From Candidatus Kapaibacterium sp. (GTDB lineage Bacteria; Bacteroidota; Ignavibacteria; Kapaibacteriales; UBA4661), in contig JANYIG010000288.1 of the NCBI GenBank assembly GCA_025358765.1, positions 1 to 35,316 of the forward strand: 35,316 nucleotides of DNA, read 5' to 3'. Within the stretch, counting starts at the first letter, position 1. Each line of letters starts with the position of its first letter. The notes beneath the pieces are model-generated. The model was not told where the DNA came from. It worked only from the letters and a program-made list of their open reading frames with translations, and searched no databases. The translations under genes and the position numbers were made by a program. Positions 21,419 through 30,832 of the stretch are shown here, in pieces.

Positions 21419-22945
21419 TTAAAACGGCGCAGAATCTCTACCGTATCCGGCAGTGCCGTCGAAATTTGAGATACTACCTGCATAGTCTGGCGGTGCTTCC
21501 ATACCGAAGGCAAGATTTTCAAATCGGGCGTAATTTTTGATGTAACTCACGCGTACCGTGCCGATGGGACCGTTACGCTGCTTGCCAATAATGAGTTCGG
21601 CGGTGTTTTCGGTAGGAGAGCCATCATCGTATGTTGTGATTTCATAGTGTTCTGGGCGGGTAATAAACATGACCACATCTGCATCCTGCTCAATAGAGCC
21701 GGATTCGCGTAGATCAGACAGCATCGGGCGTTTGTCTGAACGGGATTCCACGGAACGATTCAGCTGCGAAAGTGCCACCACAGGCACGTCAATTTCTTTG
21801 GCAAGTTGCTTGAGCGAACGGGAAATCTGGGAAATCTCTCGCTCACGGCTTTCAGCCTTCGCGCCGTGCATAAGCTGGAGATAATCCACCATAATAAGCC
21901 CGATATTGCGTTCTGCTTTTAGGCGGCGACATTTTGCACGGAGTTCCATAATAGAAAGCGACGCACTGTCATCAATAAAAATCGGCGCTTTAGCCAGTTT
22001 GTCCATTTTCTGTGCCAACTGCGGAAATTCGTCATCCGCTATACGTCCTTGAAAGATATGCTGGGCATTTACGCGAGCTTCGGCACTCAGAAGTCGCACC
22101 GTTAGTTGTACAGCAGTCATTTCAATTGAGAAAAAAGCTACAGGGACACCACTTTCTACCGCCGCATTGCGGGCAATGCTCAACGCCAAAGCAGTTTTCC
22201 CCATTGACGGTCTGGCAGCAATAATGACCAAATCCGATTTCCGCAACCCGCCGAGCATTTCGTCGAGCTTCAAATAGCCAGTGGGTACACCAATGAAACT
22301 ATTTTTATTGCCGCTTGCCATCTGCGCCAGCATCTGAAAGGTTTCTTTAGCAAGCCTGTCCATTCCCACATAACTCTTGCGGAGGCGTTTTTCGGCAATC
22401 TCGAAAATCATACTTTCTGCGGTATCAATCTCTTCCAGCGCATCTGTCGTGCTGTCATAGGAACGTTCCAAAATGAGAGATGCTGATTGAATAAGCATTC
22501 GCTTCAAGTGGTGTTCCTGCACGATGCGGGCATACTGCTCTACATTTGCAGCCGAGGGCGTACGAGCATTGATTTCCGAAAGGTAATAACTGCCGCCGAT
22601 GACTTTTAGCATGTCGAAGCGCATCAGTTCTTCGCTCAACGAGATAATATCAATCGTAATGCTCCGCTCGAACATCGCAAGCATAGTTTCATAGACCTTA
22701 CGATGAGCTTCTTTATAGAACGCATCGGCTTCTAAAATTTCAATTACTTTGCTGAGCGCTGTGCGGTCAAGCATGATAGCACCCAACACTGCCATTTCCG
22801 CATCATGGGAATGCGGTGGAACCTTGTCACCCATACCCGCAAGCTGGATAACCTGTGCAGCACGAGCAGGAGAGCCGCCTTTGACGACTTTCGAGTAGAA
22901 CACGTCGCCGGCGTATTCGTTATCTTTCACGAAATTGGATGCCAC
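21419..22945 (-). CDS. dnaB: Replicative DNA helicase DnaB
   Basis: 508 residues from a GTG start; an internal ATG at residue 38 would give about 471, and the first 37 residues are poorly conserved-looking. It unwinds DNA at the fork as a hexamer and loads through DnaA/DnaC-like partners. The N-terminal primase-interacting domain starts at HDAEMAVLGAIMLD. The RecA-like core has Walker A ARPSMGKTALALS, Walker B-like IGLIMVDYLQLM, and the DnaB signature SQLNRSVESRSDKRPMLSDLRESGSIEQDAD. No intein is visible. The upstream intergenic region carries several DnaA boxes. It is convergent with feoB across a 38-nt gap that shows no terminator. Confidence 0.95.
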   Translation of the reverse strand: MASNFVKDNEYAGDVFYSKVVKGGSPARAAQVIQLAGMGDKVPPHSHDAEMAVLGAIMLDRTALSKVIEILEADAFYKEAHRKVYETMLAMFERSITIDIISLSEELMRFDMLKVIGGSYYLSEINARTPSAANVEQYARIVQEHHLKRMLIQSASLILERSYDSTTDALEEIDTAESMIFEIAEKRLRKSYVGMDRLAKETFQMLAQMASGNKNSFIGVPTGYLKLDEMLGGLRKSDLVIIAARPSMGKTALALSIARNAAVESGVPVAFFSIEMTAVQLTVRLLSAEARVNAQHIFQGRIADDEFPQLAQKMDKLAKAPIFIDDSASLSIMELRAKCRRLKAERNIGLIMVDYLQLMHGAKAESREREISQISRSLKQLAKEIDVPVVALSQLNRSVESRSDKRPMLSDLRESGSIEQDADVVMFITRPEHYEITTYDDGSPTENTAELIIGKQRNGPIGTVRVSYIKNYARFENLAFGMEAPPDYAGSISNFDGTAGYGRDSAPF

Positions 22946-23037
22946 AGTGGTTGAATGTTAAGAAATTAAGAATTGATACTCCAAAAGCGGGAACAACGTT
23001 GCACAGCAATAATACGAAAAAAATGCTGATTAGCCGT

Positions 23038-23143
23038 TCATTTCGTTTTCCAGTTCTTATACACAGGATTTTCAACGAAATGAGGTAATTTATCCACAGG
23101 GTTTTCCACATTTCCACGCAAAAGTCGTACCAAATGTGGATTA
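23038..23143. other. DnaA-box cluster: candidate oriC or DnaA-controlled dnaB promoter
   Basis: The 213-nt gap between purU and dnaB contains TTATACACA (23057), the perfect box TTATCCACA (23090) and TTTTCCACA (23102) on one strand, and TAATCCACA on the other (23135-23143, one mismatch). The first two boxes sit in a repeated 20-mer matching 17 of 20 bases, spaced 33 bp apart. A perfect 10-bp inverted repeat, TCATTTCGTT at 23038 and AACGAAATGA at 23074, encloses the first box. An AT-rich stretch lies at 22955-22980. These are features of replication origins, though they could also regulate dnaB. Confidence 0.5.
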
Positions 23144-23158
23144 CGTGATTCTTTAGGA

Positions 23159-24007
23159 TTACTCGAACACAATAGTTTTGTTGCCGTTGAGGAAAACTCG
23201 GTCTTCAAGAACGAGTTTAAGCGCTTTAGCGAGGACGACTTTTTCAACATCGCGTCCTGCTTGCGCCATCGAAGCGGGCGTATCGGCATGGCTAACGGGG
23301 ATGACACCCTGTGCTATAATAGGTCCTTCGTCGAGCGTGTCCGTCACAAAATGAGACGTCGCACCGATAAATTTCACGCCCCGTTCAAATGCTTGACGAT
23401 ACGGGCTTGCACCGATGAAAGCCGGAAGTAACGAATGATGAATATTAATAAGACGGTTGGCATAACGAGCGGTCAAATCCGACGACAACACGCGCATATA
23501 TCGTGCAAGCACTATAAAATCTGGTGTGTAGCCGCCGAGAACCTTTAAAAGTGCTTTTTCATGGTCTTCACGATTCAAACCTTCGTGGCTTACAACATGA
23601 AAGGGAATATCAAATTTTTCCACAAGCGGACGCAAAACATCGTGGTTCGCAACCACAGCAACGATGCGGGCATTGAGTTCGCCAAAGACACTACGCGTTA
23701 TTAGATCGGCAAGACAATGATGCTCCTTCGTAGCCATTACGAGCAAATTGCGTTTGTACGTGTCCGAAAGGCGCACAGTTGCTCCTTCAGGCAAAATTTC
23801 GAGGAGTTCTTGTTGTAGCAATGAACGATTAGGTTGCCCCGTAAATTCTGTTCGCATAAAAAACTGCCCGTTATTGGCATCCACGAATTCTTGATTACCC
23901 AATACGTTGAAGTCATTGCGGTATAGAACGCCTGTAATCTTGTGTACAAGCCCTTTTTCATCGGGACAGTCTATGAGGAGTATGTATTTTTCTTCGTTCA
24001 TTGCCAT
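23159..24007 (-). CDS. purU: Formyltetrahydrofolate deformylase
   Basis: 282 residues from ATG 24007 (MAMNEEKYILLIDCPDEKG); the track ORF extends into metG and is too long. Hydrolyses 10-formyl-THF to formate and THF, balancing one-carbon pools and supplying formate. An N-terminal ACT domain (about 5-80) is followed by a formyltransferase-fold domain with VVANHDVLRP, PDFIVLARYMRVLS, and the catalytic region NIHHSLLPAFIGASPYRQA, FIGATSHFV and DEGPIIAQ, giving the conserved Asn, His and Asp. It begins 19 nt after metG and is probably in the same transcript. Confidence 0.93.
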   Translation of the reverse strand: MAMNEEKYILLIDCPDEKGLVHKITGVLYRNDFNVLGNQEFVDANNGQFFMRTEFTGQPNRSLLQQELLEILPEGATVRLSDTYKRNLLVMATKEHHCLADLITRSVFGELNARIVAVVANHDVLRPLVEKFDIPFHVVSHEGLNREDHEKALLKVLGGYTPDFIVLARYMRVLSSDLTARYANRLINIHHSLLPAFIGASPYRQAFERGVKFIGATSHFVTDTLDEGPIIAQGVIPVSHADTPASMAQAGRDVEKVVLAKALKLVLEDRVFLNGNKTIVFE

Positions 24008-24026
24008 AACGTACGTGGTCGTTTGA

Positions 24027-26318
24027 TTACCGCACTTCCGCACCAGCTTCGATGCCATCTTTTTCGGGAGTAACGAGCGACAGTGAGCCATCGGGCATAG
24101 TTGCAGCAAGGAGCATTCCCTGTGATTCATGCCCCATAAGTTTTGCAGGCTTCAGATTCACCACCACTGTGACCACTTTACCAACCATTTCCTCTGGCGT
24201 GTAGTATTTGCCAATGCCAGCAAGGATTTGACGCTGCTCCGTACCAATGTCCACCTGAAGTTTTAAAAGTTTATCGGATTTCGGAATACGCTCGGCAGCA
24301 AGAATCTTGCCCGTGCGAAGTTGCACGTGTTTAAAGTCATCAATTGAAATCAAGGAACCTGGGGTTTCATCACTCGATTGCTTCAGGCTTGGTGTCTCAG
24401 ACATAGGGCTTGATTCTTGCGAGGAGGAATTTGAAATTTGAGCAGTATCACTTGCAGCCGAAGAACCTAATTTCGCAACTTGGCGAGCAATCACATCATC
24501 CTCAATTTTCGAGAATAAAATCTTCGGTTCGCGTAAGACGGAGCCTTCGGCAAGATGCGGCAATGCGAGTGTTTTCCAAGCGTTTACAAATATTACTTTC
24601 TCATGTACATTCGGAATATTCAGAAGCTCCAATATCGCCTCTGCTGTTTTCGGCAGCACCGGCGAAAACGCAAAGCCAAGCGTCCGAATAAGCTGCGAAG
24701 AGACATACAGCGCCTTTGCACACTCGTCCGATGCTTCTTTGATGGATTTCCAGGGAGCGCTGTCATTAAAATATTTGTTCGCAGCACGGGCAATATTCAT
24801 GGTTTCCGAAACGGCATCGCGGAAGCGGAATGTGCGGTAATTCGCCTCAACCTTCTTCAAACTCAACACTATTGATGCAATCACACGCACGTCCTCCTCT
24901 GTGAAATAATGCAGATATTTGGCATGTAGTGCCTCGACAGCTTTGTCTGGCATGTTGAACGTCTGAACAGACATATCCTCCACAAGTAGCTTCCATGCTT
25001 CCGGTAACTTTTTTAGGCGTTGCGGTAATGTGGGGACTTTACCCTCGAAATTTTTGTGGATGAATTGGGCAGCACGATTCACAAAGTTGCCTAAAATAGC
25101 GCCGAGTTCGTTGTTCACACGGGCTTGAAAATCGCGCCACGTGAAGTCTGCATCCTTTGTTTCGGGCATATTCATTGCCAATGCGTAACGCAAAGCGTCC
25201 ACGTGCTGCGGCTCCGGGAACTCAGCAAAATAATCCTTCAAGTCAATCGCCCAGTTGCGAGATTTCGAGAATTTTTCGCCTTCAAGATTCAAAAACTCGT
25301 TTGCGGGGATATTCGTCGGAAGCACGTAATTTCCTTTAGCGTAGAGCATTGACGGAAACATAATCGCATGAAAAACGATATTATCTTTACCCAAAAATGC
25401 TACATACTCTTTGCCTGCTTCTTCCTGCGAGATGCCCACAGCGGCATTCAAAACACCCTCTGGAGAGATCTGCCACCAGTCTTTCCAAGCCTCCGGCGTA
25501 CCTTGCGCCTTTGCCCATTCTTTTGTGGCAGAAATATAGCCCAACACCGCATCAAACCAAACGTAGATAACCTTTCCCTTCGCACGTTCGAGCGGCACGG
25601 GTACGCCCCAGGTTAGGTCACGAGTAATAGCACGATCTCCAAGCCCTTGATTGAGCCATGAGCGTGTTTGCTGCACAACATTGTCTTTCCACGTGGCTTC
25701 TTTACTTGCGATATAATCTTCAAGCATTTGCTGAAAATCACCCAACTTGAAGTACCAATGCGTAGTATTCCGTACAATAGGTGTCTTGCCCGTGACAAGG
25801 CTGCGCGGGCTTTTGAGGTCGAGCTGATTGTAATACGCACCGCAATTATCGCATTGGTCGCCACGCGCCTTGTCATAACCACAGTTGGGGCAAATTCCTT
25901 CCACATAGCGGTCGGGCAAGAACATTTGTGCTTCTTCGTCATAAAACTGTGCTTCTTCCTTTTCCGCCATATACCCTTTTTCCAGCAAGTCTGTAAAAAA
26001 CTCCTGTGTGGTTTCGATATGTACGGGAAGCGAAGTGCGTGAATAAATATCAAAACTCATGGCAAACTTTTGGAGAGCTTCAAAGTTTGCGGCATGGTAT
26101 TTGTCGGTAAGTTGTTGTGGTGTAACGTGTTCTTTTTCGGCGGCAATAGAAATTGCGACCCCATACTCGTCCGACCCGCAGACATAGAGCACCTTATCGC
26201 CTGCAAGCCGCAGAAAACGAGTATAGAGGTCAGCCGGTAAGAAGGAACCCGCTGTGTGACCAAGATGGAGATAACCGTTTGAGTACGGAAGCGCTGATGT
26301 GACTAACGTTTGTTTCAT
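24027..26318 (-). CDS. metG: Methionyl-tRNA synthetase with C-terminal tRNA-binding domain
   Basis: 763 residues from ATG 26318 (MKQTLVTSALPYSNG); another ATG three codons earlier is possible. Class I synthetase charging initiator and elongator tRNA(Met). Catalytic motifs are HLGH (about 18-21) and KFSKS (about 349-353). A zinc knuckle is formed by CPNCG and CDNCG (Cys 143, 146, 156, 159). The anticodon-binding helical domain follows. A Ser-rich linker (SSSQESSPMSETP) leads to a Trbp111/EMAPII-like OB-fold (about 660-763: ISIDDFKHVQLRTGKI, KLLKLQVDIG, KLMGHESQGMLLAA), which supports dimerisation or tRNA binding. It heads the metG-purU-dnaB strand block. Confidence 0.96.
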   Translation of the reverse strand: MKQTLVTSALPYSNGYLHLGHTAGSFLPADLYTRFLRLAGDKVLYVCGSDEYGVAISIAAEKEHVTPQQLTDKYHAANFEALQKFAMSFDIYSRTSLPVHIETTQEFFTDLLEKGYMAEKEEAQFYDEEAQMFLPDRYVEGICPNCGYDKARGDQCDNCGAYYNQLDLKSPRSLVTGKTPIVRNTTHWYFKLGDFQQMLEDYIASKEATWKDNVVQQTRSWLNQGLGDRAITRDLTWGVPVPLERAKGKVIYVWFDAVLGYISATKEWAKAQGTPEAWKDWWQISPEGVLNAAVGISQEEAGKEYVAFLGKDNIVFHAIMFPSMLYAKGNYVLPTNIPANEFLNLEGEKFSKSRNWAIDLKDYFAEFPEPQHVDALRYALAMNMPETKDADFTWRDFQARVNNELGAILGNFVNRAAQFIHKNFEGKVPTLPQRLKKLPEAWKLLVEDMSVQTFNMPDKAVEALHAKYLHYFTEEDVRVIASIVLSLKKVEANYRTFRFRDAVSETMNIARAANKYFNDSAPWKSIKEASDECAKALYVSSQLIRTLGFAFSPVLPKTAEAILELLNIPNVHEKVIFVNAWKTLALPHLAEGSVLREPKILFSKIEDDVIARQVAKLGSSAASDTAQISNSSSQESSPMSETPSLKQSSDETPGSLISIDDFKHVQLRTGKILAAERIPKSDKLLKLQVDIGTEQRQILAGIGKYYTPEEMVGKVVTVVVNLKPAKLMGHESQGMLLAATMPDGSLSLVTPEKDGIEAGAEVR

Positions 26319-29299: not shown

Positions 29300-30832
29300 A
29301 TGCAACATCGCCCCTTTATTGCCCTTACGGTAAAATTCTTAGGCATTTGTGCGTTTATGCTCTCTACTCTGTCCGTTCACTCGCCTGCCCAAATGCAACA
29401 GATTGATTGGGCAAAAGTTCATACCACAACAATCGCCGCTATGGATGCGCTCTATAATCTGCGCTTCAATGAAGCAGAACAGAAGTCGAACGAAGTTATT
29501 ACAATGGCTCCAAACGACCCACGGGGGCATTTCTTTAGAACAATGGTTTATTACTATCGTCATCGTTTAGCGCAAAACGCAAACTCTCCGACCGAAGATG
29601 ATTTCCAAAAGTTTATGAGTTATTCGCAAAAGACAATTCAAGTCTGCGACCAGCTTCTTGCTGCCAATAAAAATGATGGGAAAGCGCTGTTTTACATTGG
29701 CGGAATGTATGGCTATCGCGGAATGACGATGGTGAACCACAATGAAATGATGAAAGCGGTGTGGCAAGGCAAAAAAGGAATTGATTATCTTGAAGATGCC
29801 GTTAAACTCGACCCGCAGAATGCTGATGCACAAATGGGTTTTGGTTTGTTCAACTACTTGATTTCGCAAGCACCTCCGATGTTCAAACCTGCCATTAGGC
29901 TTGCTGGCTTGTCGGGCGATAAAAATGTAGGTTTACGGCAGCTTGAGTATGCAGCTGCAAACGGTATATATTCAAGACCAGAAGCACAGTTCTGGCTTTC
30001 TGAATTTTATCGCAGCGAAAACCTGCCGGAACGTAGCGAAAAACATTTCAAAAACTTCCTTGCACAATACCCGCAAAACACGATGATGCGCTATCTCTAC
30101 GGCAGATTACTTCTGAACGATATGCGGCGAGGCAATGAAGCAGCGAGTCAGTTCAAACAAGCCTCCGACGAGACAGTATTGGGAGCAGCGGGTAACGCAC
30201 AGCTGTTTGTCGCAGCAAGTTTAGTTGATTTGGGTAATATCAGCATGTACAAAGAAAATTATAATGAGGCAATAAGTTGTTTTCAAAAGGCGCTTGCCAA
30301 ACGCTCGGATTGGACGAGCATTAACAATGGTATAGCGCTTTGCTACGAGCTTCAGGGAAATCGCACGGCTGCTGTACCGTATTATCAAAAAGCCAAAGAC
30401 AATAAATTTGCTCAAGAGCATGCAATAAAAGCACTTTCGGAGATTGAAATCGGACTTGTCAAATCACAACATCTTTTTAATATTGGCGAATATACCAAAC
30501 AACTTGTAGTCGTCGATGAAACCTTGAAGAAATCTGGCATTACGGATGACCAACGCGCTGAACTGCTCTATCGCAGTGCCCGTGCTGCCCACGAAAAAGG
30601 CGACTACGCACAGGCGGAAAGCCGCTATCAACAGGCGCTCGCCACGAAGCCACAAAAAGAAACATGGATTCCACCCGCAGCCTATTACCGTCTTGGTCTA
30701 ACACAAGAAAAAGTAGGTAAAAAGACCGAAGCGCAACAAAATCTTGAGCAGGCGTTGGCATTTAAGGATTATGAAAATGAGAAGCCTATGCGAAAGCTGA
30801 TGGAGCGCGATCTTGCCCGCTTAAAACGGTAA
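29300..30832 (+). CDS. Exported TPR-repeat protein
   Basis: 510 residues. The first about 30 residues (basic start, LGICAFMLSTLSVHSPAQ) form a signal peptide, so it works in the periplasm or outer membrane. The remainder is built of 34-residue TPR helix pairs, clearest around ALYNLRFNEAEQKSNEVI, KNFLAQYPQNTMMRYLYG, NYNEAISCFQKALAKRSD and GDYAQAESRYQQALATKP. No enzymatic domain. TPR proteins act as interaction scaffolds; the partner is unknown. It lies 181 nt after the lytic enzyme's stop, beyond a terminator, so it has its own promoter. Confidence 0.8.
   Translation: MQHRPFIALTVKFLGICAFMLSTLSVHSPAQMQQIDWAKVHTTTIAAMDALYNLRFNEAEQKSNEVITMAPNDPRGHFFRTMVYYYRHRLAQNANSPTEDDFQKFMSYSQKTIQVCDQLLAANKNDGKALFYIGGMYGYRGMTMVNHNEMMKAVWQGKKGIDYLEDAVKLDPQNADAQMGFGLFNYLISQAPPMFKPAIRLAGLSGDKNVGLRQLEYAAANGIYSRPEAQFWLSEFYRSENLPERSEKHFKNFLAQYPQNTMMRYLYGRLLLNDMRRGNEAASQFKQASDETVLGAAGNAQLFVAASLVDLGNISMYKENYNEAISCFQKALAKRSDWTSINNGIALCYELQGNRTAAVPYYQKAKDNKFAQEHAIKALSEIEIGLVKSQHLFNIGEYTKQLVVVDETLKKSGITDDQRAELLYRSARAAHEKGDYAQAESRYQQALATKPQKETWIPPAAYYRLGLTQEKVGKKTEAQQNLEQALAFKDYENEKPMRKLMERDLARLKR

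Follow-up and report, generated by a model that had tools for sequence, protein, structure and literature searches.

Several DnaA boxes lie upstream of the gene for the replicative helicase in this genome of Candidatus Kapaibacterium, and the question is what they are for. A preliminary description of the locus gave two options, a chromosomal origin of replication (oriC), which it put into its title, and a DnaA-regulated dnaB promoter. Conservation, position and the literature all favour the second option, and the nucleotide skew speaks against the first. We estimate a probability of about three in four that we are dealing with a dnaB promoter that has a DnaA-responsive array upstream of it, through which DnaA would regulate dnaB directly, and not with the chromosomal origin. 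By the window we mean the whole stretch of 35,316 nucleotides that was analysed, which is the entire contig C359 of a 4.86-Mb genome in 362 contigs.

The putative control region is a 213-bp intergenic gap (22946–23158, minus strand). It reaches from the 3' end of purU, the formyltetrahydrofolate deformylase gene (23159–24130, minus strand), to the 5' end of dnaB, the presumed regulated gene, which has the same orientation (21419–22945, minus strand). The gap contains four DnaA boxes spanning 87 bp (23057–23143), three of them on one strand. Two match TTATNCACA exactly, TTATACACA at 23057–23065 and TTATCCACA at 23090–23098, both on the plus strand. The other two have one mismatch each, TTTTCCACA at 23102–23110 (plus strand) and TAATCCACA in reverse orientation at 23135–23143 (minus strand). 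A 20-mer occurs twice here (23057–23076 and 23090–23109) with 17/20 identical positions and a spacing of 33 bp, or about three helical turns. Each copy consists of a DnaA box and, 3 bp further on, a second or half-degenerate box. Hence, there are two double boxes: TTATACACA followed by the degenerate TTTTCAACG (23069–23077, plus strand), and TTATCCACA-ggg-TTTTCCACA (23090–23110). A perfect 10-bp inverted repeat (23038–23083, with arms at 23038–23047 and 23074–23083) encloses the first box at 23057; we noticed no counterpart in relatives. The cluster, the repeated 20-mer and the inverted repeat had all been described before, and our analysis confirms them.

The gap has three TTWTNCACA boxes; when it was shuffled 20,000 times by dinucleotides, no shuffle had as many (mean 0.06). 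This form of the box was picked after the site had been seen, and it is the relatives that provide the independent test. In a scan of the genome for direct TTWTNCACA pairs 3–33 bp apart, two of the eight matches fall into the purU-dnaB gap. Scans for two inverted box arrangements found one site each, neither of them at the dnaB cluster.

The box array lies roughly 40–140 bp upstream of TATTATTG (23007–23014, minus strand), a candidate promoter element for dnaB that resembles the TAnnTTTG element of Bacteroidota and matches the consensus weakly. In five genomes of genus g3 (G003, G005, G007, G008, and G009) a TTTTTTC..CATATTG sequence is found between the boxes and dnaB. The same element is present in G004 of family f1, even though there are no boxes upstream of dnaB in that genome. 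The window carries TTTTTTTCGTATTATTG where the g3 relatives have this sequence, and the position may well be that of the dnaB promoter. A search of the gap for sigma70-type promoters found no match. A search for an RNA element in the dnaB leader gave no Rfam match and a fold z-score of −1.15. The arrangement of a double box with 3-bp spacing upstream of a weak promoter-like match is what one would look for in a DnaA-regulated promoter.

One would also expect such a promoter to keep its boxes together with dnaB in related genomes, a comparison that the preliminary description had proposed as well. We counted TTWTNCACA boxes in the 350 nt preceding dnaB in 30 genomes of the order, among them that of the window, and obtained 33, where shuffles predict 1.6 and the remaining parts of these loci 1.05. 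The window's own family (f1) has two or three boxes in 8/9 complete loci (the window's genome G000, and G002, G003, G005, G006, G007, G008, and G009) and one box in the partial locus of G001. Clusters at dnaB are also found in families f4 (G021) and f9 (G032, G058, and G047), and family f3 has single boxes at most. Several distant families are without boxes: none were found upstream of dnaB in f2, f5, f6, f8 and part of f4 and f9. Pairs are frequent, and double boxes with 3-bp spacing occur at dnaB in f1, f4, and f9, for example TTATCCCCA-aag-TTTTCCACA in G006, TTATTCACA-tag-TTACCCACA in G021, and TTGTCCACA-ttg-TTTTCCACA in G058.

Elsewhere in the relatives, the double box TTTTCCACAAAATTTTCCACA occurs once each in four genomes (G007:C18:26112, G005:C469:22336, G008:C49:18392, and G009:C265:5400) and is possibly another shared DnaA target. 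At G006:C102:105704–105868 there is a tandem array whose units each contain a pair of TTTTCCACA boxes with 3-bp spacing; its period of 33 bp is that of the window repeat. The window's genome contains a second dnaB-like fragment (C349:2812–3643) without a box cluster. It is frame-broken, shares 61–75% identity with the window's DnaB, and is apparently a pseudogene or a foreign fragment.

If the cluster were the chromosomal oriC, DnaA would bind the boxes, melt the adjoining AT-rich DNA and load DnaB. The packing of the boxes into an intergenic gap, most of them on one strand, fits this idea, and in G003 the skew at four-fold degenerate codon sites (four-fold skew, measured on contig pieces) does change at dnaB, from −0.202 on the left to +0.033 on the right. 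Nevertheless, we consider an origin at this site very improbable. A cluster of DnaA boxes is what it has in common with bacterial origins; it differs from them in having no skew switch and apparently no strong AT-rich unwinding element, and there is a better candidate on contig C333. In the window, four-fold skew in the dnaB-forward direction is +0.020 on the left and +0.064 on the right, so that the sign stays constant, and the same holds for GC skew as a whole. Among relatives with dnaB boxes only G003 changes in the expected direction. In G007 the value goes from +0.206 to +0.011, and there is no clear flip from negative to positive at dnaB in G047, G008, G006, G002, G032, and G018. The GC-skew check that had been suggested for an origin hence turns out against it, in the window and for most of the relatives that share these boxes. 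The AT-rich segment that had been noted nearby is weak: AT content is 63% for the whole gap and varies between 55% and 70% in 40-bp windows, without a strong peak beside the boxes. Finally, in the complete genome of the relative G012, dnaB is located at 1.39 Mb, whereas the sampled skew changes sign, from negative to positive, somewhere between about 0.12 and 0.22 Mb; G012 has no dnaB cluster.

The real oriC of this genome is probably located at C333:30520–31065, where a box cluster and a skew flip coincide. This is a divergent gap of 546 bp between a gene that we take to be DUF3108-like and an M20-like dipeptidase gene, with the boxes upstream of the dipeptidase. Three boxes are exact (TTATCCACA, TTATTCACA, and TTATGCACA) and three have one mismatch (TTATGTACA, TTATGCACT, and TTGTTCACA); the stretch from 30640 to 30679 is 80% AT. 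Four-fold skew is −0.127 on the left, where genes on both strands are negative, and +0.211 on the right (n=175, from a right side of only 2.6 kb). Boxes upstream of the M20 dipeptidase surround a conserved AAGTCATCTTGGTTATT-like stretch in G003, G004, G007, and G008; G002 and G006 have no boxes there. Four-fold skew flips again at the dipeptidase in G004 (−0.155 to +0.158) and G008 (−0.111 to +0.088). In G003 it is flat and raw skew flips. The DUF3108-like gene does not serve as a conserved mark of the origin, because boxes upstream of it are not kept in relatives.

The gene for the initiator itself lies outside the window, as had been stated, on contig C20. A comparison with its surroundings had also been proposed, and it gave no sign of an origin: there is no box cluster nearby (the 700 nt before dnaA included), and in the dnaA-forward direction four-fold skew is +0.079 on the left (n=165) and −0.042 on the right. 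We therefore reject the dnaA region as the origin. In genus g3, eight genomes have clusters of TTTTCCACA or TTATCCACA about 300–570 nt upstream of the dnaA match. One could speculate that the main feedback of the initiator has moved from dnaA to dnaB in this lineage, with oriC apart from both, beside the M20 dipeptidase. The window's genome has an array at dnaB and none at dnaA, a sister genus has both, and oriC would lie elsewhere; hence, the supply of helicase rather than of initiator would be tuned by DnaA. We hold this idea to be rather doubtful.

Would DnaA recognize these boxes at all? The DnaA of this genome carries the canonical box-binding signature GRDHTTVIHS and should therefore bind TTATNCACA boxes; TTTTCCACA is a candidate box variant for this protein. 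One could also argue that a different regulator of dnaB uses these boxes, or that the TTTTCCACA variants are ordinary repeats, since in G006 and G002 they form arrays with a 12-bp period inside an ORF. This seems hardly probable to us. The window cluster includes two exact TTATNCACA boxes. In the sampled sequence of the window's genome, TTTTCCACA occurs 16 times where 11.9 are expected, which is hardly an excess and also led us to dismiss it as a genome-wide uptake-like repeat. Moreover, genomes of genus g3 have clusters of this variant upstream of dnaA. The long arrays themselves (G006:C2:3894–4010 and G002:C7:26731–26835) contain between seven and nine TTTTCCACA-like boxes, usually at 12-bp intervals. 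We rejected them as origins, as their sequence reads as a coding repeat in a methyltransferase-like ORF.

Alternatively, DnaA could bind the array without regulating the gene next to it, if the array were a site for titration or reactivation of DnaA, like datA or DARS in E. coli, that lies upstream of dnaB by chance. It is compact, has multiple boxes and contains a degenerate repeat, and double boxes are also found in the DARS sites of E. coli (PMC11317965). However, the array is tied to the 5' side of dnaB across families although the next gene upstream seems to vary, and titration needs no such tie. We consider this alternative unlikely.

Direct regulation of dnaB by DnaA, the reading that we prefer, has precedents. 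One is a site upstream of dnaB in M. tuberculosis (Rv0057 region) to which DnaA binds; a DnaA mutant with reduced binding there under-expresses dnaB (PMC7738170). In both organisms DnaA sites are located upstream of the replicative helicase gene; the phyla are unrelated, binding was measured there and is predicted here, and the likeness concerns the position of the sites. For C. crescentus, PMC8203912, citing Hottes et al. 2005, places dnaB in the DnaA regulon, with predicted DnaA boxes upstream and DnaA-dependent expression. Predicted boxes upstream of dnaB are common to both cases, and the DnaA-dependent expression reported there would be expected here; the promoter context there is proteobacterial. 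In E. coli, DnaA in vivo binds double boxes 2–3 bp apart, with a preference for 3 bp, among them those at nrdA, purH, and DARS1 (PMC11317965). The pair TTATCCACA-ggg-TTTTCCACA fits this spacing. Unlike in our case, dnaB is not named as a target in the text on the E. coli ChIP-seq data (PMC11317965), and here there are two double boxes 33 bp apart.

We suggest that DnaA would bind the array cooperatively and thereby regulate transcription of dnaB. The position of the boxes, upstream of the promoter-like element, makes activation more likely than repression. The supply of helicase would in this way follow the activity of the initiator.

For this genome, the result would correct a likely misplacement of oriC and point to a testable origin on C333. 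More generally, DnaA control of the helicase gene, which has already been reported in mycobacteria and Caulobacter, would be extended to another bacterial lineage. This suggests that the coupling between helicase supply and initiator activity may be widespread or may have evolved repeatedly.
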